A model generated the notes under the pieces. It saw only the letters and a list, made by a program, of their open reading frames with translations, was not told where the DNA came from and did not search any database. Below are positions 6,926 to 48,317 of a stretch of DNA of 64,000 nucleotides, one piece after another. This stretch comes from Nesterenkonia xinjiangensis (GTDB lineage Bacteria > Actinomycetota > Actinomycetes > Actinomycetales > Micrococcaceae), in assembly GCF_013410745.1 (NCBI RefSeq), contig NZ_JACCFY010000001.1:2790001-2854000 (forward strand), in the 5' to 3' direction. The position numbers and the translations under genes were made by a program. Numbering within the stretch: the stretch's first letter is position 1; every line of letters starts with the position of its first letter.

Positions 6926-6987
6926 GTCCCCGTCGAGTTCATCTGTCCCCTTGCAATTCCGCGGGGACAAGCGAACAGGACGGGGAC
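6926..6987. repeat. 62-nt palindromic element, copy A
   Basis: Arms of 25 nt (6926-6950 and 6963-6987, 20 of 25 positions pairing) enclose a 12-nt loop. Each arm begins GTCCCCGT and ends GTCCCC in its own 5'-3' sense. Copies B (8195-8256) and C (48256-48317) share exactly the same 25-12-25 architecture. It lies between the convergent ends of the TSUP permease and the nuclease-domain gene, 8 nt from the stop of the latter. Confidence 0.9.
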
Positions 6988-6995
6988 GAATCCGC

Positions 6996-8123
6996 CTAGG
7001 CCCGCGGGACGCCGGCATTCACCAGTTTCTGACGCAGCAGCTCCACGGTCTGGGCCTCCGTCCATATGAAGCGAGCGACGCCGAGGCCCAGGGCTCGAAG
7101 GCCGTCCTCGCGGACCTTCTCCTCGTACACCACCTCAGAGACATCGCGGTGCCCGAGCACGCCGTTTCGGGTGTACTTCGTCCATCCGTCGAACTCCCCG
7201 ACGATCCCTGCGCTCCTCCAGAACAGGTCCACCCGAGCAGTCCTGCCGTCGGGCAGGACGAACTCCACCTGTGTCTCAGGCGTCTCGAACCCGAGGTCCT
7301 CCACGCGCAGGCGGGTCAGCGACTCTCCGACAGACTCCGCGCCGGAGTCGGAGCGTGCCCACGCGCTGGCCCAGCGTCGGCTGCCTCGCCGGCTGCGGAC
7401 GAGCGGGGTCCACGGCTCGACGTCCGCCGGGGTCAGCCTGTGCCCTGAGGCCCAGCGTCCGGACCGCACCGAGTCGAGCACGACGACGGCGTCGGTGACC
7501 TCCATGCGGGGCAGGGTGTCAGCGAGCACGAGGCCCAGCGGCTCGACGAGGATCTCAAGATCGTGCAGTCTGTGCTCCCCGGCGTCGGGCAGGGGTCGGC
7601 GAACCGTGGCGGGGGAGGGAAGCGTCTCGGCGGCCTGCCGCATGGCGCTGGAGGCCAGCACCCTCCGGGTCGGCACGCCCGCCAGATCAGCAGTGTCGGG
7701 CCGACGACGGCGTGGGCCCTTCAGCGGCCCGTCAGAGGAGGCCAGAAGGGCGCCCACGGTGTCCGGTCCGGCACGCCCGACGAGCCGGGGTGCGGGCCGG
7801 ATCCCCGCCTCTTGGCGTCGCCAGGTGCGCAGGTGAACTGCCTCCGGGACGCGGAGCTGGTCCACCCCGTGCACGGCCAGGGCCGTCTCCCGGCAGATGA
7901 CGGAGCCTGGGGCGGCCAGCCGTGTCGCCGCGGTGGCCAGCAGGTGCCGGTCCCAGGGCGGTGCCTGCAACCATGCCGCCGGGTCGATGTACACGCCACG
8001 GCGGAGTCGAAGCAGACGTCCGGCGTCGACGGCTCGGGTGAAGCTCTGGGAGGCCTGTGTGCTGTCCTCGGATGCCCCGGCATGGAGGAGCGGATGGCTG
8101 GCGGTTCGACGGGCGGCGCTCAT
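6996..8123 (-). CDS. DUF559/VSR-like endonuclease-domain protein
   Basis: A 375-residue protein. The first ~70 residues (FTRAVDAGRLLRLRRGVYID and following) resemble the winged-helix AbiEi-type N-terminus common in actinobacterial proteins of this kind. The C-terminal ~80 residues carry a PD-(D/E)XK/VSR-like core: D299 in VDLFW, E310-F-D312-G and K316 in VGEFDGWTKY, and EEKVRED at 334-340. The ATG at 8123 has GGAGG directly abutting it, an unusually short spacing, so a later start is possible. It runs against its neighbours and is bracketed by palindromic elements A and B. Function is unknown; a nuclease or a type IV antitoxin-like role is inference. Confidence 0.82.
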   Translation of the reverse strand: MSAARRTASHPLLHAGASEDSTQASQSFTRAVDAGRLLRLRRGVYIDPAAWLQAPPWDRHLLATAATRLAAPGSVICRETALAVHGVDQLRVPEAVHLRTWRRQEAGIRPAPRLVGRAGPDTVGALLASSDGPLKGPRRRRPDTADLAGVPTRRVLASSAMRQAAETLPSPATVRRPLPDAGEHRLHDLEILVEPLGLVLADTLPRMEVTDAVVVLDSVRSGRWASGHRLTPADVEPWTPLVRSRRGSRRWASAWARSDSGAESVGESLTRLRVEDLGFETPETQVEFVLPDGRTARVDLFWRSAGIVGEFDGWTKYTRNGVLGHRDVSEVVYEEKVREDGLRALGLGVARFIWTEAQTVELLRQKLVNAGVPRA

Positions 8124-8194
8124 CCTCCGACTATGGCGCACCGGGTCGGAGGCGGGGGGCTCTCGTGCGCATCTGTGGACAACCCCCACCTCTT

Positions 8195-8256
8195 GTCCCC
8201 GTCCTGTTCGTCTGTCCCCGTGCATTTCCACGGGGACAGACGAACAGGACGGGGAC
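8195..8256. repeat. 62-nt palindromic element, copy B (perfect)
   Basis: The arms 8195-8219 and 8232-8256 are perfect reverse complements over 25 nt. Pairing continues three more base pairs into the 12-nt loop (GTG...CAC), giving a 28-bp stem with a 6-nt tip. It lies between the divergent starts of the nuclease-domain gene and rimP, so it cannot simply be a terminator for a coding transcript. Confidence 0.93.
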
Positions 8257-8337
8257 AGCTGAAAGGCGTGAGAAACATGACGGGGCGCCGTCGTCAGCGG
8301 GCCCCGTCGGAGAGCGGCACTGTGCTCCCTGCACCGA

Positions 8338-8343
8338 TACAAT
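8338..8343 (+). promoter_or_regulatory. Candidate -10 box (TACAAT) for the rimP operon
   Basis: TACAAT lies 38 nt before the rimP ATG. No good -35 hexamer is seen at 16-18 nt upstream, so this rests on the -10 alone. Confidence 0.4.
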
Positions 8344-8381
8344 CGAGGCGCACCAGCACCCGACCGCCGGAGGTACGTCCC

Positions 8382-8924
8382 ATGGCATCCCCACGCCGCC
8401 CCCGCGAGGACGAGGAGTCCCGCGACCCCCGAGCCTCGGCGCTGGTCTCCGTGATCGAGCCGACCGTCACGGCCCACGGGCTGCACCTGGAGGAGGTCGA
8501 TCTGGCCAGCGGCCCGACCACCACGCTGCGAGTGGTCGTGGACTACGCCGCAGGCACCGAGCAGGTCGACCTGGACACCGTCGCGGGCCTCTCCGAGGCG
8601 CTCTCGGCGGTGCTGGACGGCGCGGACGTGCTCACCGACGTCGCCTCCTATGATCTTGAGGTCTCCACCCCGGGCGCTACCCGTCCGCTGACCGAGCCTC
8701 GGCATTTCGCGCGCAACGTCGGCCGGCTGCTGGAGATCGAACGGGAGGAGGGAGCTCCCGTGGTGGCGCGCCTGAAGGAGGTCGCCGACGACGGCGTGGT
8801 GGTCGCCGAGCAGCGCCCGGCCCCGAAGAAGGGCATGCCGGTGAAGTACGGGGATCCGGTGGAGATCGCCTTCGATGCGATCCTCGGCGCCCGAGTGCAG
8901 GTAGAGTTTTCCCACAAGGAGTGA
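8382..8924 (+). CDS. rimP: Ribosome maturation factor RimP
   Basis: A 180-residue protein needed for assembly of the 30S subunit. The RimP core runs from ASALVSVIEPTVTAHGLHLE through TLRVVVDY to YDLEVSTPGATRPLTEPRHF (about residues 18-115), where the family signature V-S-(T/S)-P-G is present. The small C-terminal SH3-like domain follows. The frame is open far upstream, but ATG 8382 has GGAGG at proper spacing and matches the family start. It heads the rimP-nusA-ylxR-infB block. Confidence 0.96.
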   Translation: MASPRRPREDEESRDPRASALVSVIEPTVTAHGLHLEEVDLASGPTTTLRVVVDYAAGTEQVDLDTVAGLSEALSAVLDGADVLTDVASYDLEVSTPGATRPLTEPRHFARNVGRLLEIEREEGAPVVARLKEVADDGVVVAEQRPAPKKGMPVKYGDPVEIAFDAILGARVQVEFSHKE

Positions 8925-8942
8925 CCACACCGAGCGAAGAGG

Positions 8943-8963
8943 CCGGCCGAGATCATCGGCCGG
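8943..8963 (+). other. Short perfect hairpin in the rimP-nusA gap
   Basis: CCGGCCGA at 8943-8950 pairs with TCGGCCGG at 8956-8963 around GATCA. It lies 18 nt after the rimP stop and 60 nt before nusA. It could be an attenuator or RNA-processing site; no U-run follows. Confidence 0.4.
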
Positions 8964-9023
8964 AGGATGAGCGACGGAGCGATCGGACCGGGCCTGTGCG
9001 GCACGGGCGAACTGGAGGAACAA

Positions 9024-10001
9024 GTGGATATCGATATGAGTGCCCTGCGCATGCTCGTCAAAGAGCGTGACATTCCCCTCGAGAAGCTGATACCGGCCAT
9101 CGAGCAGGCTCTCGTGCTGGCATACCACAAGTCCCCGGGAGCGCTGCAGCACGCTCGTGCCGAGATCGATCAGTCCACCGGTCACGTGACCGTCTGGGCC
9201 AAGGAGTTCACCGAGGAGGGCGGCGTCCTCGGCGAGTTCGACGACACTCCGAAGAACTTCGGTCGCATCGCCGCGTCCACCGCGCGGCAGGTCATCATGC
9301 AGCGCATCCGTGATGCTGAGGATGACCAGGTCCTCGGTGAGTTCAAGGGCCGCGAGGGCGAGCTGATCTCCGGTCTCGTCCAGCAGGGTCGCAACCCGCA
9401 CATGGTGCAGGTGGACCTGGGCTCCGTGGAGGCTGTCCTGCCCCCGCAGGAGCACGTTCCCGGGGAGGTCTACTCCCATGGTTCGCGACTGCGGGCCTTC
9501 GTGGTGGACGTCCACCGCGGGATGAAGGGGCCTTCGATCACGCTCTCCCGCTCGCACCCGGGGCTGGTGAAGAAGCTCTTCGAGCACGAGGTCCCGGAGA
9601 TCGCCGACGGCACGGTGGAGATCACCGCCATCGCTCGCGAGGCCGGCCACCGCACCAAGATCGCCGTGCGGAGCAGCCAGTCGGGGATCAACGCCAAGGG
9701 CGCCTGCATCGGATCGATGGGCTCCCGCGTGCGGGCCGTGATGACCGAGCTCAACGACGAGAAGATCGACATCATCGATCACAGCGATGACCCGGCGGAG
9801 TTCATCGCCCATGCGCTGTCGCCCTCGAAGGTCTCCTCGGTGACGGTCGTGGACGAGAACGCCCGCTCGGCGCGGGTGGTCGTTCCGGATTACCAGCTCT
9901 CCCTGGCGATCGGCAAGGAGGGGCAGAACGCCCGTCTGGCCGCCAAACTGACCGGTTGGCGCATCGACATCGTCTCCGACGCCGCTCCTGCCGCCGACTG
10001 A
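9024..10001 (+). CDS. nusA: Transcription termination/antitermination factor NusA
   Basis: A 325-residue RNA-polymerase-associated factor. The order is N-terminal RNAP-binding domain (about 1-125), S1 domain (about 130-200), then two KH domains, ending in [20 protein letters not shown]. It lacks the acidic C-terminal repeats of enterobacterial NusA, as is normal in Actinobacteria. I prefer the GTG at 9024 because GGAGG sits about 6 nt upstream; an ATG at 9036 is an alternative, and the frame also opens at 8967 without family-like sequence. Confidence 0.95.
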
Positions 10002-10078
10002 CCACCCGGCCTGTGGGTGAGGGGACTCACTCGCGCGGGAATGATTCTTCCGTGACCACGCCGAGGGGGTAGACTGTC

Positions 10079-10408
10079 ATGGTCCCTGTCCGAACCTGCG
10101 TCGGCTGTCGCCGACGGGTTGAGCAGGGAGACGTCGTGAGACTTGCACTGGCGCCCGAGGCCGTGGAGCCCGACGCCGACCGGTCGTCCGGTCGGCGCGA
10201 GGTGGCTTCTCAGCCTTGTCGGGTGGTGGTCGACGCCGTGTGCCGGATGCCCGGTCGCGGAGCGTGGATCCACCCGAGGCCGGAGTGCTTCGAGGCGGCG
10301 GTGCGGCGGAAGGCCTTCAACCGGGCGTTCCGTCGGCCGGTCAGCATCGAGTCCCTCAGTTTCGAGCACGTCGAGGCCGCCGCTGTGCGGCCCTGGCGCC
10401 GAGGCTGA
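10079..10408 (+). CDS. ylxR: YlxR (DUF448) family RNA-binding/regulatory protein
   Basis: A 109-residue protein of the YlxR family, found almost invariably between nusA and infB. It begins [21 protein letters not shown], the conserved DUF448 signature, and has a [22 protein letters not shown] motif split around residues 60-80 in which the GRGA(W/Y) core and the basic helix are seen. It binds RNA and has been linked to RNase P and nucleoid regulation in other bacteria. A TAGACT hexamer lies four bases before the ATG, too close to serve as -10 for this start. Confidence 0.92.
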
Positions 10409-10610
10409 AGACGTCCCAGCACACACCAGATGAAAGCGGGTTGGAAAGAGATGGACACCCGATGAGCACCGACGGATGAGTACCCAGTGAAGACATCCCT
10501 GAGTGACTCCGTCATGAATCTCAGAAATTTCAACGGCTCCGTCCGGTGAGACGCTGATATCAGCCCCGCTGATCTCGGCGGGCATCGCGCGGGCCAGAAT
10601 GAGGAGCAAA

Positions 10611-13460
10611 GTGGCCAAGGCCCGCGTACATGAGCTCGCCAAAGAGCTCGGCATCACATCCAAGGACGCTCTTGCCAAGCTGCAGGAGATGGGCGAATTC
10701 GTGAAGTCGCCGTCCTCCACCGTGGAACCCCCGGTGGCCAAGAAACTGCGTTCGGCGTTCCCCCACGCCAAGAAGGACGCTTCCCAGAAGTCTGCCCCGA
10801 AGCCTGGAGGTGGCCCCTCGCCGACTCCCGGCGGGGTGAAGCCCGGCCCGAAGCCGGCGCAGAAGCCTGGTCCGAAGCCTGTCGAGGAGAAGCCTGCCCC
10901 GCAGGCGCCTCAGGCTGAGGCTCCCCAGCCCTCTGCCGAGAAGCCTGACCAGGCGGGTTCTTCCGCGCCTGCTCCGAGCGAGTCGGCCGAGAAGCCTGTT
11001 GCGGACAAGCCTGCTCCGGAGTCCCCGGTGACTCGCGCCCCCCGCCCCGGCGGTCCGAAGCCCGACGGCGCCAAGACCGGTGAAGGGGCCCCGAAGTCTG
11101 GCGGCACTCGTCCGGGTCCGCGTCCGGGCAACAACCCGTTCGCCCCGAAGCAGGGCATGGGCTCCTCGGAGCGCCCGGCCCCGCGACCCGGCGGCTCCGG
11201 CGGCCCCCGCCCCGGTCCGCGTCCGGGCCCCCGCCCGGGCAACAACCCGTTCGCCTCCCAGCAGGGCATGCGCACCGAGCGCGGCGGCGGCCCCCGTCCC
11301 GCGGGCGGTCGCGGCCGGCAGGGTGCACCGGCCCAGGGCGGTGCTCGTCCCGGCGGTCCGCGTCCGGGCCCGGAGCAGGGCGGCGGCGCTCGTCCGAAGC
11401 CTTCGATGATGCCCGGACAGACCACCTCTCCCGGTGGCGGTGGGCGTCCCGGTGGCGCTCCCGGGCGTCCCGGTGCTCCGGCCGGCGGCCCGCCGCGTGG
11501 CCGTGGTGGCCGTGGTCGTGGCGGCACTGCCGGCGCCTTCGGGCGCGGTGGTCCGTCCCGGTCGAGGTCGCGCAAGTCCAAGCGCGCCAAGCGTCAGGAG
11601 ATGGAGCAGCGGCAGACCCGTGAGATCGGCGGTGTGCGCGTCCCCAAGGGTGACGGCACCACGATCCTGCGCCTGCGTCGCGGCTCCTCCCTGGCTGACT
11701 TCGCCGAGAAGATCAATGCTGAGCCCGCGGCGCTGGTCACCGTGCTGATGAAGCTCGGTGAGATGGCCACGGCCAACCAGTCCCTGGACGAGGAGACCTT
11801 CCAGCTGCTCGGGGAGGAGCTGGGCTACAGGGTCCAGATCGTCTCGCCTGAGGATGAGGACCGTGAGCTGCTCGAGACCTTCGACATCAACCTGGCGGCC
11901 GAGGCGGCCGCCGAGGATGCCGATGACCTCGAGGCACGTCCTGCGGTGGTCACCGTCATGGGTCACGTCGACCACGGTAAGACCCGTCTGCTGGACGCCG
12001 TCCGCAACTCGAACGTCACCGAGGGTGAGGCCGGAGGCATCACCCAGCACATCGGTGCGTACCAGGTGCACGTCGAGCATGACGGCCGCGAGCGGGGCCT
12101 GACCTTCATCGACACCCCCGGCCACGAGGCGTTCACCGCCATGCGTGCCCGTGGTGCGAAGGTCACCGACATCGCCGTGCTGGTGGTCGCCGCCGACGAC
12201 GGCGTGATGCCGCAGACGGTGGAGGCGCTGAACCACGCCAAGGCGGCCGGTGTGCCGATCGTGGTCGCGGTCAACAAGATGGACAAGGAGGGCGCCGCAC
12301 CGGAGAAGATCCGTGGGCAGCTCACCGAGTACGAGCTGATCCCCGAGGAGTATGGCGGCGAGACCATGTTCGTCGACATCTCGGCGATCCAGGGTCAGAA
12401 CATCGACCAGCTGCTCGAGGCGATCCTGCTGACCGCCGATGCGGCGCTGGAGCTGACGGCCAACCCGTCCAAGGAAGCCCGCGGCGTCGCCATCGAGGCC
12501 CACCTGGACAAGGGCCGTGGCCCGGTGGCCACCGTGCTGGTGCAGTCCGGCACGCTGAAGGTCGGTGACAACATGGTCGCCGGCACCGCCTTCGGCCGTG
12601 TGCGTGCGATGTTCGACGAGAACGGCGACCTGGTCGAAGAGGCCGTCCCGTCCCGTCCTGTCCAGGTGCTGGGTCTGTCCTCGGTGCCGCGCGCCGGTGA
12701 CAGCTTCCTGGTCACCTCGGATGACCGTACTGCCCGTCAGATCGCTGAGAAGCGTGAGGCCGTCGAGCGCAACGCGATGCTGGCCAAGCGTCGCAAGCGC
12801 GTGAGCCTGGAGAACTTCGACCAGGTCGTGGCCGAGGGCAAGATCGACACGCTGAACCTGATCCTCAAGGGCGACGTCTCCGGTGCTGTCGAGGCGCTGG
12901 AGGACGCTCTGCTGGGCATCGACGTCGGTGATGACGTGCAGCTGCGCGTGATCCACCGCGGCGTCGGCGCCATCACGCAGAACGACGTCAACCTGGCCAC
13001 CGTGGATGAGGCCGTGATCGTCGGATTCAACGTGCGTCCGGCCGAGCGGGTCCAGGACCTGGCTGACCGGGAGGGCGTGGACATGCGCTTCTACTCGGTC
13101 ATCTACGCGGCGATCGATGACATCGAGGCTGCGCTGAAGGGCATGCTCAAGCCGGAGTACGAGGAGGTCCAGCTGGGCAGCGCGGAGGTCCGCGAGGTCT
13201 TCCGCTCCTCGAAGTTCGGCAACATCGCCGGTTCGATCGTCCGGTCGGGCACCATCCGCCGCAACGCCAAGGCGCGCCTGGTGCGCGACGGCTCCGTGGT
13301 GGTGGACAACCTGGCCATCGAGTCGCTGCGTCGCTACAAGGATGACGCCACTGAGGTCCGCGAGGGCTTCGAGTGCGGTATCGGCCTGGGCTCGTTCAAC
13401 GACATCAACGACGGCGACGTCATCGAGACCTGGGAGATGCGCGAGATCCCGCGCGTCTGA
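10611..13460 (+). CDS. infB: Translation initiation factor IF-2
   Basis: A 949-residue GTPase that recruits initiator tRNA to the 30S subunit. The N-terminal IF2_N helix ([20 protein letters not shown]) is followed by about 300 residues rich in Pro, Gly, Arg and Lys with low complexity, then the GTPase: G1 GHVDHGKT at 451-458, G3 DTPGHEAF, G4 NKMD and G5 SAIQGQN. The beta-barrel and C-terminal domains complete it. GTG 10611 is chosen because GAGGAG lies just upstream; an ATG four codons earlier overlaps that site. The 202-nt leader after ylxR holds no gene I recognise. Confidence 0.97.
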
Positions 13461-13474
13461 GTCTCATGTCGCCT

Positions 13475-13521
13475 GACACCTCCGGGGATCGCACCGTCGT
13501 GGTGCGGTCCCCGGAGGTGTC
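13475..13521 (+). terminator. Strong hairpin after infB
   Basis: A 21-bp stem (13475-13495 with 13501-13521, one G-U pair) with a 5-nt loop begins 14 nt after the infB stop. It separates infB from rbfA. Confidence 0.8.
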
Positions 13522-13582
13522 CCTGCCTGGCCTGGGGCTGTCCTAGGCTGGGAACCACGTTTCGACTTTCAAGGAGGCCATC

Positions 13583-14077
13583 ATGGCTGATCCAGCACGC
13601 GCCGCACGGCTCGCCCAGCGCATCAAGGTGATCGTTGCCGAGGCGCTGCGTCGCCGGGTCAAGGACGAGCGCGCGGAGCTCATCACTGTCACTGACGCGC
13701 GCGTCACCAACGACCTGCAGCACGCCACGGTCTACTACACGGTCATGGGTGACGACGACGCCCGCCGGGGTGCCGAGGAGGTGCTCGCCGCCCACAAGGG
13801 AGCCGTGCGCCATGAGATGGGCAAGCAGCTGACCATCCGGCTCACCCCGACCATCGAGTTCGTCGCTGATGAGATCCCGGAGTCTGCCGCGCACCTGGAG
13901 GATCTGCTGCGCAAGGCGCGGGAGCAGGATGAGCAGGTTGCCGCCCTGCGCGAGCAGGCGGCTCCGGCCGGGGGCGAGGACCCCTACCGTTCGATGGGCG
14001 AGGGGTCGGAGGAGTCCGAGCACGCCGGCTCTGAGGGTGTTGCCTCTGACGGGACCGGCTCCGCTGACGAGCGCTGA
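13583..14077 (+). CDS. rbfA: Ribosome-binding factor A
   Basis: A 164-residue KH-fold protein for late 16S rRNA 5'-end maturation and cold adaptation. The family pattern runs from RLAQRIKVIVAEALRR to ITVTDARVTNDLQHATVYYT and LRHE/RHEMGKQLTIRLTP, covering residues 8-110. After that a Ser/Glu/Gly-rich tail of about 40 residues is likely disordered. AAGGAGG lies 6 nt before the ATG. It follows a strong terminator, so it probably has its own promoter. Confidence 0.95.
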   Translation: MADPARAARLAQRIKVIVAEALRRRVKDERAELITVTDARVTNDLQHATVYYTVMGDDDARRGAEEVLAAHKGAVRHEMGKQLTIRLTPTIEFVADEIPESAAHLEDLLRKAREQDEQVAALREQAAPAGGEDPYRSMGEGSEESEHAGSEGVASDGTGSADER

Positions 14078-14092
14078 GGGGCCGGCATACCT

Positions 14093-15082
14093 ATGGGCAA
14101 GCAGCAGCGCGCGGAGGAGATCGCTGTCGGTTCCGGCCTGGTGCTGGTGGACAAGCCGGCCGGGTGGACCAGTCATGACGTCGTCGGGCGGATCCGCCGG
14201 CTGGCGGGCACCCGCAAGGTGGGGCATGCAGGCACCCTGGACCCCATGGCCACCGGGGTGCTCGTGGTCGGCATCAACCGCGCGACGCGGCTGCTGACCC
14301 ACATCGTGGGGGTCTCCAAGACCTATACGGCCACCATCAGGTTGGGGCAGTCGACCACGACGGACGACGCCGAGGGTGAGCTGCGCCAGACCCGCTTCGC
14401 CAATGCGGTCACCCCGGAGCGGGTGCAGCATGAGGTGGACGGGCTGACCGGGGAGATCCAGCAGGTGCCGGCCACGGTCTCGGCGATCAAGGTCGACGGA
14501 CGCCGGGCCTATGACCGTGCCCGCAAGGGCGAGGACGTCCAGCTGGCGGCTCGGCCCGTGACCGTGCATCGCTTCGACGTGCTTCAGTTCCGGCGCGTCG
14601 AGGGCGGACGGCTCGTCGACGTCGACGTCGAGGTGGACGTCTCCTCCGGCACCTATGTGCGGGCGCTGGCCCGTGACCTGGGGGAGGCGCTCCAGGTCGG
14701 CGGGCACCTGACCGCGCTGCGTCGCACCGCGGTGGGTCCCTATCGGATCGAGAACGCGCTGACTCTGGACCAGCTGGCCGAGGACTTCGGCTATGTGGGC
14801 TTGGCCGAGGCCGCGGCGCGGATCTTCGCGCAGCGTGAGCTGAGCGCCGAAGAGGCGGAGAACCTCGGGCATGGACGCCGCATCACCGCCTCCGGCACAG
14901 GCGCCGCGGGAGAACCGGATCGGCTCACGGCGGCCTTCGGGCCCGAGGGCGAGCTGATCGCTCTGCTCAAGGACGTGCCGGCGAAGAAGGACGCCTCAGC
15001 CTCCGGCGAGGCCGCCCGCGCGGCTGCTGCGGAGCAGGCGGACTTCCAGGCGAAGCCGGAGCTGGTCTTCGCGCCGCAGTGA
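14093..15082 (+). CDS. truB: tRNA pseudouridine(55) synthase
   Basis: A 329-residue enzyme that makes pseudouridine 55 in the T-loop of tRNAs. The catalytic aspartate is D50 in GTLDPMATG; the other TruB motifs SKTYTATI and VSSGTYVRALARDLG are clear. The C-terminal domain is followed by an Ala/Lys-rich tail of about 30 residues. It starts 15 nt after rbfA, so the two are probably cotranscribed. Confidence 0.96.
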   Translation: MGKQQRAEEIAVGSGLVLVDKPAGWTSHDVVGRIRRLAGTRKVGHAGTLDPMATGVLVVGINRATRLLTHIVGVSKTYTATIRLGQSTTTDDAEGELRQTRFANAVTPERVQHEVDGLTGEIQQVPATVSAIKVDGRRAYDRARKGEDVQLAARPVTVHRFDVLQFRRVEGGRLVDVDVEVDVSSGTYVRALARDLGEALQVGGHLTALRRTAVGPYRIENALTLDQLAEDFGYVGLAEAAARIFAQRELSAEEAENLGHGRRITASGTGAAGEPDRLTAAFGPEGELIALLKDVPAKKDASASGEAARAAAAEQADFQAKPELVFAPQ

Positions 15083-15173
15083 GCGGCTTCACCTGCCGGA
15101 TGCTCCGTTGCGAAGCGTTCTACAGGGTGTAGAGGTTTAGAATCGTCCAGGACCGCTCGGCAGGAGGAGACGC

Positions 15174-15542
15174 ATGACCCTGATGTTCATCATCGGCACC
15201 GTCGTGTGCGCCGCCTCCACGCTGATCTGCTGGGTGATGACGGCACTGCGCCGCCATCCGGCGGACTCCTCTATCATCAGCCTCGCCGCCGTCGAGCTCT
15301 TTCTGGTGGCCTACGGCATCTACGCCGCGGTGCGGCAGCTGGGCTTCGAGGCGACCATCACCGGTGAGGGCTGGGAGTTCTGGGGCTACGTGTTCACGGC
15401 GCTGCTGCTGCCCGTGGGCGTGTTCGTCTGGGCGATGATCGACAAGACCCGCTGGTCGAACCTGGTGATGAGCTTCGTGGGCCTGGTGGTATTCGTGATG
15501 GTCTATCGCATGGAGGTCATCTGGTGGGGGAGCGCGCTATGA
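15174..15542 (+). CDS. Small four-helix membrane protein
   Basis: A 122-residue hydrophobic protein with about four membrane segments (residues 1-23, 35-52, 66-86, 96-116). GGAGGAG precedes the ATG at good spacing. Its TGA overlaps the ATG of the next membrane protein. I do not recognise a functional family; actinobacterial genomes often keep small paired membrane proteins between truB and ribF. Confidence 0.75.
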   Translation: MTLMFIIGTVVCAASTLICWVMTALRRHPADSSIISLAAVELFLVAYGIYAAVRQLGFEATITGEGWEFWGYVFTALLLPVGVFVWAMIDKTRWSNLVMSFVGLVVFVMVYRMEVIWWGSAL

Positions 15543-18543: not shown

Positions 18544-18744
18544 TGTATGCGAGACTATGAAGGACAGGCACGCCGGTGCGAGCATGGATACCACGTGCTC
18601 CGGTCCTCGGTAGTGGCCTCCGGGAGCCGCGCGCAGGCGCAGGCAGCCCGTGGGCTTCGATCGATGGCCGTCATGTGGTCTGATCCAGCTCCTCTCGCCG
18701 GCGTCCGTGCCTGGTTATTCGACAACTGAGAGGAGACACCTGTT

Positions 18745-40937: not shown

Positions 40938-40940
40938 TCG

Positions 40941-41864
40941 TCAGCGGCTGAGCAGCTCCTTAGTCTCGGTCCCGGGTACTGCGACTGAGACCTGAGTACC
41001 CCACGGGTCGGTGGTCACCACGCGGTGGCCGTCGTCGTCGAAGTTCAGCCCCCGCATCCGGTAGCGTGCCACCAGGGCGTCCAGGTCTTCTCGGCCGGGC
41101 ACGGTGATCGCCAGATCCCCCAGCCCCAACCGGGAGGCGCGCGGCCCAGCCCCGCCGCTGTTCCAGGTGTTCATCGCCACGTGGTGGTGATACCCGCCGG
41201 CCGAGGCGAACAGCGCCCCCGGCAGGCTGGCGGTCGGGTCGAAGCCCACCGCGCCCACGTAGAACTCCCGGGCACGGGCGACGTCGCCCACCTGCAGGTG
41301 CACATGCCCCACCTTCCCGGCCCGGGCCGATCCGGCGTCGAGCACCTCCTGGTCCAGGTGGCGGCGCAGATACGCTCGCGGATCCAGCGGGCGGGTGCCC
41401 ATGCGGATCTGCGTGCCGTGGACCTCCCAGGTGTCCCGCGGCCGATCCCGGTAGAGCTCGATGCCGTTGCCCTCCGGGTCGGTGAAGTAGAAGGCCTCGC
41501 TGACCAGATGATCACTGGAGCCCACGAACCGGGACTGCGGATGCTGGGCCGCCCGGTGCACCGTGGCCGCCAGGGAGGCCTCGTCCTCGAACAGGAACGC
41601 CGTGTGGAAAAGGCCCGCCTCGCGCGGATCCACGCTCGGCAGATCCGGGGTGTGGATCAGCCGCACCATCGGGGTGGCGCCGCGGCCCAGCACCCGGTGG
41701 ACCTCCCGGCCCCGGGTGCGCTCCTGCAGCGGCTCCATGGCCAGGGCGGTCTCGTAGTAGGCGGACATCGCCTCCAGGTCACCCACCCGCAGGGTGACCG
41801 CATCCATTCCGGTGGCGGGGTTCAGGATGCGGCCGTCAGCGGCGGGGGAGTGCTGGGTGTCCAT
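40941..41864 (-). CDS. VOC family protein with two glyoxalase/dioxygenase domains
   Basis: A 307-residue protein with two vicinal-oxygen-chelate modules (about residues 18-145 and 185-300). Metal-ligand-like positions include the HTAFLF strand, IELYRDRP, VGHVHLQVGD and HHHVAMNTW. It resembles the YfiE/CatE catechol-2,3-dioxygenase-like group of Firmicutes and Actinobacteria. Its stop lies 3 nt from the convergent stop of the serine hydrolase gene. Substrate not determined. Confidence 0.88.
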   Translation of the reverse strand: MDTQHSPAADGRILNPATGMDAVTLRVGDLEAMSAYYETALAMEPLQERTRGREVHRVLGRGATPMVRLIHTPDLPSVDPREAGLFHTAFLFEDEASLAATVHRAAQHPQSRFVGSSDHLVSEAFYFTDPEGNGIELYRDRPRDTWEVHGTQIRMGTRPLDPRAYLRRHLDQEVLDAGSARAGKVGHVHLQVGDVARAREFYVGAVGFDPTASLPGALFASAGGYHHHVAMNTWNSGGAGPRASRLGLGDLAITVPGREDLDALVARYRMRGLNFDDDGHRVVTTDPWGTQVSVAVPGTETKELLSR

Positions 41865-42029
41865 GGGCGATCGTCCTTGCGTCGTCGGGCCCCGGGGATC
41901 AGGAGACCAGTTGGTTGTTGCTACAAGTGAGAACGTGGAGATGCGGCGAATTGTTCCCCGGTGCGTCGGCGTGGGTGCTGTTGACCTGATCGCGATCCTG
42001 TAAGCCCTGGTCCATGTTCTAGTCGTGGA

Positions 42030-42196
42030 GAACTCACGGACAAAGACTGGGAACGCATCGAACCTCTGCCTCCCGCCAATCGCCGAGGCTACCGGTGGCG
42101 AGATCTGCCCGAGTGCTACGAGTCCTGGAAGACCGCTTATGAACGGCTACGGGTCTGACCCTCACCATCGCCAGCACCGTGTTGTGGCTGCGATGA
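42030..42196 (+). pseudogene. Internally deleted IS5-family transposase remnant
   Basis: From 42030 the frame reads ELTDKDWERIEPLPPANRRG, then YRWRDLPECYESWKTAYERL, the N-terminal part of an IS5/IS427 transposase with the HPVINGILW segment missing. In the next frame, directly after, it reads LTIASTVLWLR and stops at 42194-42196, which is the C-terminal end of the same kind of transposase. The whole middle, including the catalytic DDE region, is gone. Confidence 0.75.
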
Positions 42197-42247
42197 CTCA
42201 CAGGAGACGCCCTAGACGGCGGAGACCATCCTGAACTGTTGGATAGC

Positions 42248-42721
42248 TCAGTCAACGTCTCGTATCGCGTGACGGATACTCGCGTCGAGGACTTTCTTAG
42301 TTCGCCCTTGCTTCCACGGCTTGAAGGTCCACAGAAGAATCTGTGAAACCGTCAGGAAGGCGCAAGAACCCACGACAACGCCCCACGCGACAGAATCCAG
42401 GATTGCCCCAGAAGTGAGTCCGGTGATGGCCGGGACAAGAGCGTATGCTCCGGTGACCCATATCGAGGAAGGCGTGAGTTGTTGTTGCCGGACAGCCTCT
42501 ACACGGTAGGTCATCAGGTTCACTGTCTCTGAAATCAGGATCGTCATAGTCCCAGTCCAAGCCATCGTCCCGATGTCAGGAGGGTCAAGGAGTAGGAAGT
42601 TGCCGGTGGCCGCACTGCTGAGGAAAAGAACAGCGAACCAGATCGGGGCGAGAAACGCATGACCGAAGACCGCAGCCCCGAACGATGGGAGATATTCAGA
42701 TGCTCGGAATAGACGCAACAT
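42248..42721 (-). CDS. Hypothetical membrane protein
   Basis: A 157-residue protein with about four hydrophobic segments (roughly residues 14-38, 48-70, 88-106, 112-130) and a basic C-terminus. Its start lies 6 nt downstream of the stop of a small exported protein, so the two form an operon. I do not recognise a family. A membrane partner or immunity protein for the exported product is possible but unproven. Confidence 0.65.
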   Translation of the reverse strand: MLRLFRASEYLPSFGAAVFGHAFLAPIWFAVLFLSSAATGNFLLLDPPDIGTMAWTGTMTILISETVNLMTYRVEAVRQQQLTPSSIWVTGAYALVPAITGLTSGAILDSVAWGVVVGSCAFLTVSQILLWTFKPWKQGRTKKVLDASIRHAIRDVD

Positions 42722-42727
42722 GTGTCG

Positions 42728-43084
42728 TTAGACCATGCAAGCGTCGATAACGGAATTGACTCCGAGGACCTTAACGGTGAGCTCGGGATCAACTGTGGTG
42801 AGGTCGCCGAGTTCTTGACTCAGCCGCGCCTTGCGGTCTGGAAGATCCTCTGGCGGAGCTTCCCGGAGATCTTCAGGAAGGTCCTCCAGGGCGCTCAGGA
42901 TCTCCTCGATCTGCGCCTCAAGCTGCGCTTCGGTCTCGGCGGAGGTGAGAGCGGCCGCCCCGTTAGAGGAGCCTCGCGCTGACGCAGAGGTTGCTCGAGA
43001 AGGCGTAGCTCCGACGAAGTGACTACCGGCGAGAAGACCTAATGTTCCACTTCCTGCTGTCGTCAGAAATGCTCGTCCTTGCAT
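42728..43084 (-). CDS. Small putative exported protein
   Basis: A 118-residue protein starting MQGRAFLTTAGSGTLGLLAG, a short basic N-terminus plus a hydrophobic stretch like a signal peptide, with possible cleavage near residue 26-33. The mature part is a charged helix rich in Glu, Leu and Ala, ending VIDACMV with a single near-terminal cysteine. It precedes a membrane protein gene by 6 nt. No known family. It lies next to an ISL3 relic. Confidence 0.6.
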   Translation of the reverse strand: MQGRAFLTTAGSGTLGLLAGSHFVGATPSRATSASARGSSNGAAALTSAETEAQLEAQIEEILSALEDLPEDLREAPPEDLPDRKARLSQELGDLTTVDPELTVKVLGVNSVIDACMV

Positions 43085-43162
43085 CGGAGGAAACCTCTCA
43101 GGCGGGGAGCTCGACTATTCGACCCTAAGGGCACTGCTGGACGGTAGTAAAGCCCGCAAGAG

Positions 43163-43440
43163 GGCTCTTCGGACGTCAGGAGCTCATCGCAGATGAGGGG
43201 GTAGCAAGGGGCTGAATCCTCCGGTATCCAGCAGGGCCCGGAGGATGCGGTTGGCCAGGTGTCGGAATGCCAGAGCGGTTCCACGCAGATGTTCCCATCG
43301 GCCGTTGATCACCTCGGGCTGCCGCTGCGGCACCGCGCGGCTCAGGGGGTCGATTGCCTCGATGAACACTGCTTGCCCGTGCTTTCCGGGGCGACGACAT
43401 TCTGGGCATCCGTAGTCGCGGACACGTACCCGGAGCATGG
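43163..43440 (-). pseudogene. ISL3-family transposase 3' remnant
   Basis: In the frame ending at 43184 the minus strand reads VINGRWEHLRGTALAFRHLA followed by NRILRALLDTGGFSP, which matches the C-terminus of ISL3-type transposases. About 20 nt past the stop is GGCTCTTC (43163-43170), the typical end of ISL3 terminal repeats. Only the tail of the element remains, and it is joined to the 3' end of the alpha/beta hydrolase gene. The upstream boundary is uncertain. Confidence 0.75.
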
Positions 43441-44426
43441 TGGTCTCCCGTCCACCGAGCCGTTCCCCTCGCCGTAGCGCGGTCGTCCTCGCGTCGTCGA
43501 GGGAGCCCTCGGGCGACCTGCGCGGAGCTGATTTCCCGGACGGACTCGACGATCCGCCGTCGTGCCCTCCGCCCTTCCGGAGTCGGCAGCAGGGGGTAGA
43601 CATGCAGATGCCCGGGCTGCTCATGGAACTCCACATCCACTCCAGACTCGCGGGCGTTGCGCACGAAGAGCCTGGTGTCCGGGTTCAAGATGTCTCGAGT
43701 GCCGCTGAAGATCATCACGCCGCTGATGCCTTGGAAGCCTCCCAGGATCGGGTTGAGGATGGGATCCTCTCCATGCTCACCGATCCACATCTCCGCCACC
43801 TCGAGCTGGCCCTTCTTCACCAGCCATGGGTCCGAGGGCTGGACGGCGTCGATCTCAGGATTGGTGAATCGCAGATCGAGCGCGGGCGAGACCAGCACGG
43901 TCAGAGCGGTCGGCACGCGGCGTTCCGCCAGTAGGAGGCTTGCCGACATCGCGATGCTGCCCCCGGCGGAATCGCCCATGAGCACCATCTGCTGTTCATG
44001 CTGCTCACAGAGCTCCGCGATGCGCGGCACCACCGTCTCCGCCGTGCCGCCCTCATGGGCGAGGGGATACACCGGCATGATTACCGAGACCGATGCCTCG
44101 TGGGCGAGTTGCTGCACCCACCGCCAATGGGCTCCCGCAGCCTCATGTATCCAGCCCCCTCCATGGAGGTAGACCACAGTGCCGTGCGCTTCAGCATGGG
44201 CAGGGGAGATGGTGTAGATGCGCCACCCTCTGTCCCAGGTGGCTGTGACCGTGACGTCCCGGCGCAGTCGCTTCGGCGGGTTGACCGGTCGAGGCCGCAG
44301 CTTCAGCTTGTCAAGATGCCGACGCACGTGTGCACGAGTGCGGTAGTTCCGGTTGGCTCGCCGCAGCCGCATGGCTGCAGGCAGGAGCCTGGCGGTCAGG
44401 CTCATATCCTGCTTCGACTCACCCAT
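43176..44426 (-). CDS. Alpha/beta hydrolase (HSL/acetylesterase type) with ISL3-derived tail
   Basis: A 416-residue frame. Residues 1-300 are a complete hormone-sensitive-lipase-type esterase: oxyanion HGGGW at 88-92, nucleophile S153 in GDSAGG, D245 in GTRDILNPD and H273 in QPGHLHVYPLL. Such enzymes usually end near residue 300-310; here about 105 further residues, rich in Arg, Pro and Gly, are read out of frame through the ISL3 relic. The insertion probably removed the original stop. The start lies 3 nt after the TetR gene, so it is the last gene of the TetR/Pip operon. Confidence 0.85.
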   Translation of the reverse strand: MGESKQDMSLTARLLPAAMRLRRANRNYRTRAHVRRHLDKLKLRPRPVNPPKRLRRDVTVTATWDRGWRIYTISPAHAEAHGTVVYLHGGGWIHEAAGAHWRWVQQLAHEASVSVIMPVYPLAHEGGTAETVVPRIAELCEQHEQQMVLMGDSAGGSIAMSASLLLAERRVPTALTVLVSPALDLRFTNPEIDAVQPSDPWLVKKGQLEVAEMWIGEHGEDPILNPILGGFQGISGVMIFSGTRDILNPDTRLFVRNARESGVDVEFHEQPGHLHVYPLLPTPEGRRARRRIVESVREISSAQVARGLPRRREDDRATARGTARWTGDHHAPGTCPRLRMPRMSSPRKARASSVHRGNRPPEPRGAAAAARGDQRPMGTSAWNRSGIPTPGQPHPPGPAGYRRIQPLATPSSAMSS

Positions 44427-44429
44427 GCC

Positions 44430-45104
44430 CTACCCCAGCCCTCCGGCGGACATCGCCACCAGCGCCTGCACGCAGTCCTCCTCGGACCACTCCTGGTGGG
44501 TGGTGTGCTGCTCGATGCTCAACGTCACCGCCGCCGACAGCAGGGAGGTCGCCATGATCTCCAGCCGGGCCGGGGACGACGGCGTCTCGGCGTGCCCTTC
44601 AGCCACTCGGGCCGCGTCGAGCCGGGCCAGCCGGTCGGTCAGCAGACCTACGATGGCCTCCTTCTCGGCGCGCAGCTGCTGGGACTCGTCATCCCGGCGT
44701 CGAGCCAACGCATAGGCCACCAGTCCGGTGAAGGACGGGTACTCGCGCAGGAACGCGAAGGCCGCACGGATCTGCGCGGTGAGGCTGGCCCGGACGGAGG
44801 CGAGGTCGCCGACGTCGTCGAGGTCATCCATGATGCGCTGCAGCTCCTCCGCCCCATGCACCAGCATCTGCCGGACCAGGTTCTCCTTGGAACCGAACTG
44901 GTAGTACACCGAGCCCTTGGCCACACCGGCGATCGCCGCCAGCTCCTCCACGGAATGCTCTTGCACGCTGCGGTGATCATCCAGGGCCATCATCGCCTGC
45001 AGCAGACGCACCCGGGCTGAACCCCGCCGTGGACCTCCTCGTGAGCTCGCTCGTGAACCCGCGGCTGCCTGCGGCCCGCTGTCAGTCTCGCTCACCGCGC
45101 TCAT
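44430..45104 (-). CDS. TetR-family transcriptional regulator
   Basis: A 224-residue repressor. The HTH is at about residues 50-80 (SVEELAAIAGVAKGSVYYQF then GSKENL), the standard TetR arrangement, and the C-terminal ligand domain is helical. The ATG overlaps the stop of the Pip gene (4 nt). A perfect 6-bp-arm palindrome lies upstream of the first gene of this operon and is the likely autoregulatory site. Confidence 0.92.
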   Translation of the reverse strand: MSAVSETDSGPQAAAGSRASSRGGPRRGSARVRLLQAMMALDDHRSVQEHSVEELAAIAGVAKGSVYYQFGSKENLVRQMLVHGAEELQRIMDDLDDVGDLASVRASLTAQIRAAFAFLREYPSFTGLVAYALARRRDDESQQLRAEKEAIVGLLTDRLARLDAARVAEGHAETPSSPARLEIMATSLLSAAVTLSIEQHTTHQEWSEEDCVQALVAMSAGGLG

Positions 45105-47320
45105 GCGGCCTCCTCAATCGCCGGCTGGAGCCGCTTCAGGCTCCACATCTTCTTCTTCCGGATTGCCAGCACCAGCAGCGTCAGCCCCACCCCGGTGGTC
45201 GCCAGCAGCGCGGCCAGCGTAGTGGACAGCGTAGCCAGGTCCGCACCGTAGATGACATGCCTCAGGCCATCGACCACGTAGCTCATCGGCAGCACCGGGT
45301 GCAGAGCCTGCAGCGGCTCCGGCAGCGTCTCCGGCGGGAACGTACCGCCCGAGGCCACCAACTGCAGCACCAGCAGCAGGATCATCAGCATCTTGCCCGG
45401 ATTGCCCAGCAGCGCCACCACCCCCAGCACCAGGGCGGAGAACGCCATGGACGCGGCGAACAGCACCGCCAGAGCCAGCCACGGATGCGCCGGAGACAGG
45501 CCCAGTCCGGCGACGACGGCCCCGTAGAGCAGCAGGCTCTGCGTCAGCGAGAGCAGCAGGAACGGCACCCAGGAGCCCAGCGCTATCGACGCCGACGGGG
45601 CGTTGGAAGCCAGCGCCCGGGTGGAGGTCGGCCGCAGTACCTGCAGCATCACCAGCGCACCGATCCACAGCGACAGGGCCAGGAAGAACGGCGCCATCCC
45701 GGCCCCATAGTTGCCGGCCTCGGTCTGCGCCGTCTGGTTGACCTTCAGCGGGTTGCCGATGACCTCGCTGATCTCCTCACGCTCATCATCATCAGGGTTC
45801 GGCACCTCCTCGGCCCCGTCATCCAGTCCGTCGGTCAGCTCCTCGGCGCCGTCGGCCAGTTCCACCGAGCCGTCCGAGGCCTCGAGGAGACCATCCCGCA
45901 GGGCCACCGCGCCGTCGTTGAGCGCGGTCGCGCCGTCGTTGAGCTCCCCGGCGCCGATGGCCAGCTGCCCCACCCCGTCATGGGCGGTGTCAGCACCATC
46001 GGAGAGGTCCGAGGCCCCGGAGCTCAGCTGCAAGGCACCATCGCGGGCGGTGCTCAACCCGCCCGAAAGGTCAGGGGTGGAGTCCGCCAGCTCCGCGGCA
46101 CCATCGGCCAACGTCGAGCTGCCGGCTAGCAGCTCATCGGCCCCATCAGCGACCTCACGCGCACCGGTGGCCAGCTGATCGATGTCCTCCTGGGCCTCAC
46201 CCAGCTCCGTGCGCGCCGTCTGGGCGCGGGTGATCAGCTCAGAGTCTTCCGCCACCGAATCCAGCGCGCCGCGCGCCTCCTCCACCTGCTCCTCCTCGAT
46301 CACCCCGGCGTCAAGGAGGTCCTGCACCGCCTGGTCCGCACGCCCCTCGGCCGAAGCCTCGAACTCCGAGATGATGTCGCTGGCCTCATGGGAGGCGTTC
46401 GAGAGCGCTTCATTGCCGTCGGCCACCTGCCCGGCGCCCTCGCTGAGGGTGCTGATCCCGGTGTTCAGCTCCGAGGCGCCGGCGGAGAGCTGCCCGGCAG
46501 CGGTGTCCACCGCGTCGGCGCCCTCCTGCAGCTCAGACATCCCGCTGGAGAGCGAGGAGGCGCCGGTGGAGAGCTCATCGGCCCCGTCAGAGAGCTGCTC
46601 GGTGCCCTCGGAGAGCTCACCCAGGCCGGTCACCAGCTCATCGACGCCGTCGTCGAGATCCCCGGCCCCGTCCACCAGCTCCACGGAACCCGAGTGCAGC
46701 TCACCGATGCCGTCGCTGAGCTCGCCGGCGCCGTCGTGGAGCTGCCCGGCGCCATCGGCGGCGTCGATCAGCTGCCGGTGGATCTGCCCGAAACCGGTCA
46801 GCATCGCATCTGCGGTCTCCTGGCCGACCTCGCTGGAGACCGACTCATGGACCTCTGAGGCCAGCACGCTGACGATGTTGCTCAGCAGATAGTTGTTCGC
46901 CTCATTGGTGGTGATGTCCAGGATCGCCTGATCGGCAGACTCGAAGCTCGATGGCGAGGCCAGCGCCTCCGAGAAGTCCTCCGGGATGATCAGCGCGAAC
47001 TGGTGCTTGCCCGAGGCCACGCCCGCCTCCGCGGCCTCCCGGGAGTCGACGGTCTCCCAGCCGAAGGAGGCGTCGTCGATGAGCTCCTCGGCGACGTCGT
47101 CACCGACGGTGCGGTGCTCGCCGTCGAAGTCCGCCCCCTCGTCAAGGTTCACCAGGGCCGCGTCGACGTGCTCCAGATTGTCGTAGGGATCCCAGTTCGC
47201 ATACAGGTAGATGCCCGCATAGAGCACCGGCACCAGCGCCAGCCCGAAGATCGTGATCAGCGGAGTGAAGCTGCTGGTCATCCGCGCGAACTCTGAGCGC
47301 ACGAGTCGCAGGAACGTCAT
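45101..47320 (-). CDS. YhgE/Pip-family membrane protein (ABC-2-like)
   Basis: A 739-residue membrane protein. One N-terminal membrane segment (about residues 18-40) is followed by YANWDPYDNLEHVDAALVNL, the YhgE/Pip signature. A long extracytoplasmic region contains many short repeats of the form L-x-D-G-A-x-x-L, and about five C-terminal membrane segments of ABC-2 type end the protein. Relatives include the phage infection protein Pip and the ESX-linked YueB/EsaA. It overlaps both neighbours by 4 nt. Together with the pseudo-ATPase it probably forms an export-type complex controlled by TetR. Confidence 0.9.
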   Translation of the reverse strand: MTFLRLVRSEFARMTSSFTPLITIFGLALVPVLYAGIYLYANWDPYDNLEHVDAALVNLDEGADFDGEHRTVGDDVAEELIDDASFGWETVDSREAAEAGVASGKHQFALIIPEDFSEALASPSSFESADQAILDITTNEANNYLLSNIVSVLASEVHESVSSEVGQETADAMLTGFGQIHRQLIDAADGAGQLHDGAGELSDGIGELHSGSVELVDGAGDLDDGVDELVTGLGELSEGTEQLSDGADELSTGASSLSSGMSELQEGADAVDTAAGQLSAGASELNTGISTLSEGAGQVADGNEALSNASHEASDIISEFEASAEGRADQAVQDLLDAGVIEEEQVEEARGALDSVAEDSELITRAQTARTELGEAQEDIDQLATGAREVADGADELLAGSSTLADGAAELADSTPDLSGGLSTARDGALQLSSGASDLSDGADTAHDGVGQLAIGAGELNDGATALNDGAVALRDGLLEASDGSVELADGAEELTDGLDDGAEEVPNPDDDEREEISEVIGNPLKVNQTAQTEAGNYGAGMAPFFLALSLWIGALVMLQVLRPTSTRALASNAPSASIALGSWVPFLLLSLTQSLLLYGAVVAGLGLSPAHPWLALAVLFAASMAFSALVLGVVALLGNPGKMLMILLLVLQLVASGGTFPPETLPEPLQALHPVLPMSYVVDGLRHVIYGADLATLSTTLAALLATTGVGLTLLVLAIRKKKMWSLKRLQPAIEEAA

Positions 47321-48177
47321 TCTTTGCCCTCCAGAAGGTCATCCAGGTCGCCCTTCTGCGCCGCAGCGGCTGCGTCCTCAGCGGGCACGTCCTCAGCGGA
47401 AGCGTCGGCCAGGGGAGCCTCGTCAGCGGGCGTGTCCTCAGCGAGCTGCTCCAGGGCGTGGTCTTCGACCAGCTCATCCTCTGGACCGCCCTCGTCGACG
47501 CCTTCGACTCCCGCGGTGGACTCCTCATCGGCACTCGGCGGCTCATCGTGGTGGCCGGCGAACGCGCAGGTGATGTCCTCCCGAACCGGAGGCGTCTCCA
47601 GCAGGGCCAGCAGGGACCGGCCGGAGTCGAAATCACAACGGTCGCTCAGGAAGTCGGCCAGCTCATCGATGTCGACGTCGTGGCGGTCCGGAGAGTCGAC
47701 CACGGCGAAGCGGACGGCCGGGTCGGAGAAGGCCAGCTCGATGAGCAGGCCGAGCCGACGCAGCGGCTCCAGCGTGTCGATCCGGTCCCCGGCGATGTCC
47801 TCCGCCTCATGCTCCGCCAGCCAGGCGCGGACCCCGATCCGCCGGGCCTCGCGGCCCACCCGACTGCGCAGCGGCCGCAGCGCCAGCGACTCGGAGACCA
47901 CGTTCTTCACGGTCATATGGTGCTCCGGGGCGGTGATGCCGGGGGAGTCCACCAGAGCAGTCCGGTGCCGGAGTGCGCGCAGATCCTCGACGTCGTCGAG
48001 GAGCACCGTGCCCTGGTCCGGCACCATCCGTCCGGAGCTGATCAGCGCCAAGGAGGTCCGCGCCAGAGAGGTGGAGGCCTGCAAACCGGAGAGGGCGCCG
48101 TCGGCCGCGGAGAAGCTGGTGGGGTCGAGGATCCGACCGCGATGACCGTCGAAGGCCACATCCTGAAGTCTCAGCAT
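47317..48177 (-). CDS. Degenerate ABC-transporter ATPase-like protein lacking Walker A
   Basis: A 286-residue protein whose first ~200 residues follow the layout of an ABC ATPase: MLRLQDVAFDGHRGRILDPT, then GRMVPDQGTVLLDDVEDLRA where the D-loop/Q-loop approach is expected, and AVVDSPDRHDVD in place of Walker B. The Walker A glycines and lysine are missing (GLQASTSLARTSL instead), and no LSGGQ is seen. The last ~75 residues are acidic and low-complexity. It is probably a non-hydrolysing partner of the Pip-like protein whose start it overlaps. First gene of the operon. Confidence 0.75.
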   Translation of the reverse strand: MLRLQDVAFDGHRGRILDPTSFSAADGALSGLQASTSLARTSLALISSGRMVPDQGTVLLDDVEDLRALRHRTALVDSPGITAPEHHMTVKNVVSESLALRPLRSRVGREARRIGVRAWLAEHEAEDIAGDRIDTLEPLRRLGLLIELAFSDPAVRFAVVDSPDRHDVDIDELADFLSDRCDFDSGRSLLALLETPPVREDITCAFAGHHDEPPSADEESTAGVEGVDEGGPEDELVEDHALEQLAEDTPADEAPLADASAEDVPAEDAAAAAQKGDLDDLLEGKE

Positions 48178-48196
48178 GCGACCATCGTACGCTTGA

Positions 48197-48210
48197 ACTG
48201 ACTGGTCAGT
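48197..48210. promoter_or_regulatory. TetR-type operator upstream of the pseudo-ATPase/Pip/TetR operon
   Basis: ACTGAC-TG-GTCAGT is a perfect palindrome with 6-bp arms, 19 nt upstream of the operon's first ATG. On the minus strand TAGACT lies next to it as a possible -10, so binding would block transcription. Confidence 0.65.
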
Positions 48211-48255
48211 CTAAAAATGTGAGGAGTGCATCATCTCGCGCCCTCCGCCTCCTTC

Positions 48256-48317
48256 GTCCCCGTCGTCTTCGTTCGTCCCCGTGGAATTCCTCGGGGACGA
48301 ACGAAGAGCACGGGGAC
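48256..48317. repeat. 62-nt palindromic element, copy C
   Basis: Arms 48256-48280 and 48293-48317 pair at 23 of 25 positions around a 12-nt loop containing GGAATTCC. The outer GTCCCCGT and inner GTCCCC blocks are the same as in copies A and B, while the middle of the arm differs and is compensated on the other arm. It lies between divergent genes. Confidence 0.92.

Follow-up and report, generated by a model that had tools for sequence, protein, structure and literature searches.

How do three palindromes of one fixed length come to lie in a single stretch of an actinobacterial chromosome, and why do two of them enclose the same gene? The window analysed here is the 64-kb stretch from position 2790001 to 2854000 of the single-contig, 3.57-Mb genome of Nesterenkonia xinjiangensis (the home genome), and it contains three palindromes of 62 nucleotides (nt), named A, B and C. 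Between A and B lies a nuclease gene, and its homologues are often accompanied by their own palindromes, a central fact that the initial annotation of this DNA missed. The gene product is predicted to join an AbiEi-antitoxin-like part to a Vsr-like nuclease, and gene and protein are called AbiEi-Vsr below. Palindrome and gene are almost certainly a cognate pair. As the best explanation of the whole we lean towards the view that the AbiEi-Vsr protein has the palindromes as its cognate DNA sites. The features concerned, in window coordinates, are:

6926-6987: palindrome A, 62 nt, just 3' of the AbiEi-Vsr gene; GTCCCC at 6926-6931 and 6945-6950, GGGGAC at 6963-6968 and 6982-6987
6996-8123, minus strand: AbiEi-Vsr gene, 375 aa, stop codon at 6996-6998, between A and B
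8195-8256: palindrome B, 62 nt, upstream of both the AbiEi-Vsr gene and rimP; boxes start at 8195, 8214, 8232 and 8251
48256-48317: palindrome C, 62 nt, a solo copy between divergent genes; boxes start at 48256, 48275, 48293 and 48312

Palindromes in the home genome and in relatives

All three copies are built as 25 + 12 + 25 nt, with GTCCCCGT/ACGGGGAC invariant on the outside and GTCCCC/GGGGAC on the inside. Each arm also holds a direct repeat, GTCCCC standing at element positions 1 and 20 and being mirrored at 38 and 57; the start-to-start spacing of the boxes in A is 19-18-19. The initial annotation had described three 62-nt copies of this 25-12-25 build, with invariant outer and GTCCCC blocks and 23 of 25 arm pairs kept in C, and the sequence bears it out on each point. 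Counted by eye, the arms pair at 20 of 25 positions in A, at all 25 in B and at 23 in C, A being paired less well, and in B a 6-nt loop is closed by 28 perfect pairs. Folding as single-stranded DNA gave z scores of -4.8 (A), -12.6 (B) and -8.6 (C). The pattern GTCCCC-N48..52-GGGGAC occurs three times in the window, far beyond chance (mean 0.22 in 100 shuffles, none of which reached three).

Across the home genome there are seven copies, of which six are exact 62-mers and one is degenerate. A covariance model built from the six exact copies, and hence from six of its own seven home matches, recovers all seven at best-strand E values from 5e-17 to 6e-10. The loose pattern finds six real places genome-wide vs four for a reversed control, which calls for caution with the pattern alone; the real copies are set apart from the control by exact length, inner boxes and covariance-model score.

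At E <= 0.01 the same model matched 16 of 147 genomes, including seven of the 30 same-genus genomes (G000-G029, home included), so the family is dispersed, as had been proposed, and not confined to three copies. The same-genus matches are mostly 62 nt long and vary in box wording (GTCACC in G019, ATCGCC in one G024 copy, ATCCCC/TTCCCC in G005), and in copies whose wording is clear the inner box changes along with the outer one. This joint change pointed to a DNA-binding protein of drifting specificity. Outside the genus, the repeated-box design is retained in G039, G068 and G070, whereas weak matches in G047, G062, G078, G090, G108 and G144 were judged by eye to be unrelated hairpins.

The AbiEi-Vsr gene and its product

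The predicted structure (pLDDT 92.6) comprises an AbiEi-antitoxin-like part in residues 1-259, with an AbiEi fold and a winged helix-turn-helix, and a nuclease in residues 264-371 resembling Vsr and I-Bth0305I. The latter appears to have the Vsr/PD-(D/E)xK catalytic fold with its conserved acidic residues; E267, D299, E310, D312 and K316 are conserved. In family searches, Pfam AbiEi_4 and DUF559 both stayed under cut-off in all eight homologues scanned, NCBIfam returned no family for five homologues, and a sequence-profile search of the PDB gave a single match at E 0.93. Homologues were matched in 37 of the 58 genomes searched (home included), with up to eight matches per genome. The protein diverges fast: identity to the G007 and G008 homologues is 48%, vs 70% and 73% for RimP. 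Decayed homologues with in-frame stops occur at G008:C44, G027:C1:236600, G028:C33, G006:C1 and G009:C1.

Many homologues have their own palindrome

For the pairing test, the sequences upstream and downstream of each homologue were compared for a shared repeat (score >= 20), with mismatched pairings as control. A matching flank repeat was found in 36 of 91 loci vs two of 455 mismatched pairings; of these two controls, one scored 154 and presumably joined two related loci. This set includes broken and distant homologues and leaves out at least six further matches (G009:C1, G104, G110 and three of G107). A second set, of named loci, came from an alignment-profile search of genome contigs (best 80 of 559), a single-protein search having given no match; here 45 of 80 loci had a matching flank repeat vs 12 of 400 controls. 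Some loci are common to both sets, and identical elements occur. The named homologues nearest to the home protein all come from Nesterenkonia. Among named loci outside Nesterenkonia, 41 of 66 score at least 20, in genera that include Arthrobacter, Sinomonas, Cryobacterium, Agromyces, Micrococcus, Rhodococcus and others, together with one bin labelled Acidobacteria. Such pairs accompany many homologues across Micrococcales, and the four-box palindromes form a widespread actinobacterial family.

The shared flank repeats are mostly palindromic among those printed, and their wording is specific to the gene, three paralogues in the home genome carrying three different pairs. In G002, two copies 1.4 kb apart enclose a homologue of 37.5% identity; the gene tree gave no answer on whether this gene, with its GTCCCC palindromes, is sister to the home gene. 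At four Nesterenkonia loci (L030, L031, L032 and L036, in G027, G015, G022 and G010) the end of the nuclease gene, stop codon included, reaches into the downstream palindrome (GGGAGGTAAAACGC).

Four boxes at a fixed offset

For the geometry, 113 palindromic flank elements (70 loci) were used, picked by shared flank score (>= 20) and palindromicity, not by the 19-nt offset. The outer box is repeated at offset 19 in 44 of the 113 elements vs 0.35 expected, every other offset being found in five at most. A four-box reading with offset 19 in each arm is possible in 52 of 113 elements (33 loci) vs a mean of 0.6 in mirrored arm shuffles, a control that keeps the elements palindromic, and in 50 of 106 distinct sequences. 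The commonest layout, 6-13-6-12-6-13-6 or 62 nt, accounts for 16 elements and is common to Nesterenkonia and Cryobacterium, whose boxes are unrelated (CGGCAC in Cryobacterium).

Cryobacterium genome G150 has 16 of 26 pattern matches of exactly the length of the 62-nt layout, and its sister species G154 at least eight. One arm in G150 runs on into several boxes spaced 19-20 nt apart, and a site with a single copy in G154 carries two full copies plus several half copies in G150. A second box family, TACCGCGCAGC, recurs every 19 nt, also in opposite orientation, in G150 (L321:5940-6700); its boxes sit in a longer unit that is itself tandemly repeated, and G154 has only a short stretch there.

A DnaA-box-like motif upstream of the gene

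One further feature lies in the interval between palindrome B and the gene start:

8173-8183, minus strand: DnaA-box-like motif GTTGTCCACAG

The exact GTTNTCCACAG at 8173 is the only one in the window. Across the 91 loci, exact GTTNTCCACAG stands upstream on the gene strand in 44, vs five on the opposite strand, none within the gene bodies and none downstream (89 loci). With up to one mismatch it was found upstream in 27 of the 66 named loci outside Nesterenkonia and reversed in one. The home genome has 21 exact GTTNTCCACAG vs one for the control; one of these lies after dnaA, in a locus with a cluster of further TTNTCCACA boxes (nine there vs 1.34 expected). The position of the motif suggests that AbiEi-Vsr expression may be tied to replication. 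At C1:542129 (L361) and C1:766217 (L367) of the home genome, other exact GTTNTCCACAG motifs have more distantly related members of the nuclease family nearby.

Genomic context and site occupancy

The A-gene-B site is flanked by two genes:

6050-6853, plus strand: TauE/SafE-family gene, one flank of the site
8382-8924, plus strand: rimP, the other flank

Each lies beyond a flanking palindrome, and in the window no AbiEii toxin gene stands beside the AbiEi-Vsr gene. A occupies a convergent junction (TauE gene plus, AbiEi-Vsr gene minus) and B a divergent one (AbiEi-Vsr gene minus, rimP plus), while C lies at a second divergent junction, between the open reading frame (ORF) at 47317-48177 on the minus strand and a TPP-enzyme gene on the plus strand. 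One convergent and two divergent junctions is also what the initial annotation had counted. By ORF reading, the home sites L001 and L003 are codirectional and L007 is probably convergent. Elsewhere in the window, the only Rfam match is an Actino-pnp RNA at 18599-18672 on the plus strand, above its gathering score, and tandem 14-nt repeats CCTCGCTTCACACA adjoin a run of C at 57029-57140.

Comparison with related genomes gave a mixed picture of occupancy. Site L002 has a palindrome in the home genome and none in G008, where the gap keeps a single GTCCCC. Site L003 is common to the home genome and G008 and absent from G007, L001 is common to home and G008, and at the place orthologous to C, G008 holds a 62-nt copy with different arms. 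In G013 there is no cassette beside rimP and the TauE gene stands directly next to it; the intergenic DNA compared is too diverged for the junction to be read. The orientation of the rimP-side gene varies, away from rimP in G000 and G007 and towards it in G008, G010, G015, G020, G021 and G022; in the gene tree, six genes of the rimP region group in a single, well supported clade. What these comparisons document, on the time scale of species, is gain or loss and inversion; they do not demonstrate transposition.

A model and its alternatives

The AbiEi-like part very probably binds the boxes directly, with about one protein per box. Binding at the upstream palindrome would probably repress the protein's own gene, and the other copies would be bound too. 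The Vsr-like nuclease may then nick or cut DNA at the palindromes. If the DNA is repaired from a second copy, or if the template is switched across the palindrome, low-frequency spread, duplication and homogenisation could follow; to such nuclease-dependent dispersal we give an even chance. In that case the AbiEi-Vsr gene, passed on mainly by vertical descent, would drive a small population of palindromes in the way that RAYTs drive REPINs. Many genes carry their presumed target on both sides, and box specificity may thus be readable from sequence, a ready-made set for learning how AbiEi-type winged helices read DNA.

Whether the hairpin itself is under selection, as first supposed from the matched changes in C, has an answer in two parts. 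Changes in the two arms are indeed matched in the six exact home copies, where the arm covariation score is 0.217 vs 0.116 in shuffles and none of 500 shuffles reaches it (the number of further pair types is not exceptional, 67 of 500 shuffles), but selection for a hairpin does not hold generally. An alignment was made of 22 of the at least 24 64-nt copies of G150 and G154, the near-duplicates G150:C66:94765 and G150:C77:7325 being left out; in it the four boxes are invariant, the outer ones fixed by the search pattern and the inner ones free, and the spacers drift. We take the boxes to be the conserved feature because those of Cryobacterium are invariant while the rest of the arms shows no matching; the arm matching at home may reflect recent origin or arm-to-arm correction.

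Several results weigh against the model. In these 22 copies arm covariation does not exceed that of shuffles (195 of 500 reach the score). At score 20, 55 of 91 and 35 of 80 loci are without a matching flank pair, and 61 of 113 elements do not allow the 19/19 four-box reading. The bare pattern gave 26 matches vs 27 in the reversed control in G150 and 28 vs 25 in G154, and six of the remaining ten gave fewer matches than their control, so that the Cryobacterium copies are set apart only by exact length and inner boxes. The G008 homologue loci L037, L070 and L097 yielded no GTCCCC pair, despite seven model matches in that genome (on C40, C43, C76, C83 and C134), the four read having GTCCCC-type boxes; these copies may have been orphaned when their cognate gene was lost or altered. 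Movement must be slow, because three of the seven home sites are common to G008. By eye, no target-site duplication, for which a check had been proposed at the outset, was seen at the seven home copies, and no new insertion with clean junctions was found; around C, L002, L003 and the rimP site the intergenic DNA is too diverged for exact junctions to be read. Horizontal spread is not evident either, with one weak homologue match in 72,556 plasmid records and none in 50,697 phages.

The main rival is purely regulatory and we consider it unlikely, if the most serious of the alternatives: the palindromes would be operators only, with the AbiEi-like protein repressing its own gene and the neighbours of solo copies, the nuclease acting elsewhere (e.g., on invading or damaged DNA) and ordinary duplication spreading the copies. 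AbiEi and Rv2827c do autoregulate by binding inverted repeats, the Cryobacterium boxes and spacers behave as binding sites would, and B and C lie between divergent genes. Set against this are the 36 of 91 loci with a matching repeat on the 3' side of the gene too, the convergent or codirectional settings of A, L001, L003 and probably L007, and the matching of arms within home copies, for which operators have no need. Were this rival right, the system would shrink to a variant of the AbiE operator system. A homing cassette, in which palindrome, gene and palindrome are copied as a unit into nuclease-cut solo palindromes and solo copies are empty or collapsed sites, seems to us improbable: each flank is a full palindrome rather than half a target site, the single clade of rimP-region genes resembles vertical inheritance, and no genome pair with a solo palindrome vs the whole cassette at the same place was found among the four home sites compared.

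We attach very little probability to mobilisation as REPINs, miniature inverted-repeat transposable elements (MITEs) or terminal inverted repeats (TIRs) by a Y1/HUH or DDE transposase encoded at another locus. The palindromes are indeed dispersed, and GGGGACA resembles the GGGGWSAS motif that the consulted part of PMC3733652 gives for TIRs of some RAYT-like genes; yet box wording varies with the AbiEi-Vsr lineage, and Y1_Tnp (PF01797) had no match in the home genome at E <= 0.001 (five of 14 control genomes matched), other HUH families and DDE transposases not having been searched for. By eye, no GTAG or CGTC tag stands at the ends of the seven home copies either, and the REPIN- or IS200-like nature first suggested for them was not upheld. 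RNA hairpins or bidirectional terminators are just as implausible, stable as the folds are when computed as DNA. A scan of A and B gave no terminator-like site, no Rfam family reached its gathering score at any element in the window, and the direct repeat within each arm has no role in termination; with B and C between divergent genes, termination alone is indeed, as had been argued, an insufficient explanation.

Two classes of dispersed bacterial palindrome, REP/REPIN and MITEs, are tied to known transposases. That the cognate-site model adds a third, independently evolved kind, four-box elements spread and kept alike by a co-evolving AbiEi-Vsr nuclease that is expressed in step with replication through its DnaA box, is a tentative proposal, which we rate somewhat below even.

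Comparison with known systems

In iteron plasmid origins, a winged-helix protein meets direct repeats of about 19 bp with a DnaA box nearby. Only the 19-nt period and the DnaA-box-like motif agree with the present system, which has inverted repeat pairs, a chromosomal location and a fused nuclease, and no replicon was seen. The likeness to the AbiE type IV toxin-antitoxin systems (AbiEi of Streptococcus agalactiae, Rv2827c) would lie in the AbiEi fold with its winged helix. Those proteins bind inverted repeats in their own promoters, and a palindrome stands upstream of the AbiEi-Vsr gene; unlike theirs, the AbiEi-Vsr gene encodes a fused nuclease, lacks an adjoining AbiEii gene, and has downstream and dispersed sites of different geometry. 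With Vsr and homing endonucleases such as I-Bth0305I the protein would share the predicted catalytic fold and the conserved acidic residues. It differs from I-Bth0305I-type homing in its full palindrome on each side and its AbiEi-like DNA-binding part, and no interrupted host gene or intron was seen.

The closest parallel is REPIN-RAYT, described in the consulted parts of PMC3116915 and PMC3733652 as a dedicated gene flanked by palindromes, with dispersed solo copies, lineage-specific wording and several gene-palindrome pairs per genome. The AbiEi-Vsr gene is likewise flanked by its own repeat, with solo copies, lineage-specific wording and several pairs per genome. The differences are that the enzyme is an AbiEi-Vsr fusion instead of Y1, that four boxes at 19-18-19 replace two inverted REP hairpins, and that copies number seven here and 16 of exact length in Cryobacterium G150, whereas REPs usually exceed 100 per genome, to go by the excerpt of PMC2817692. 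Titles and openings of abstracts in the open-licence PMC literature held, among the matches listed, no description of such a gene-palindrome pairing, and to that extent enzyme and box geometry fit no repeat system found in literature searches. Whether a repressor-nuclease fusion can drive repeat dispersal is a question close to that of the CGTC-type REPs, which have no known enzyme according to the part of PMC3733652 consulted. The system works like REPIN-RAYT with an unrelated enzyme, yet lacks the defining marks of that family; it looks like an independently evolved counterpart and, if the model is true, would be an actinobacterial one made from an antitoxin repressor and a homing-type nuclease.
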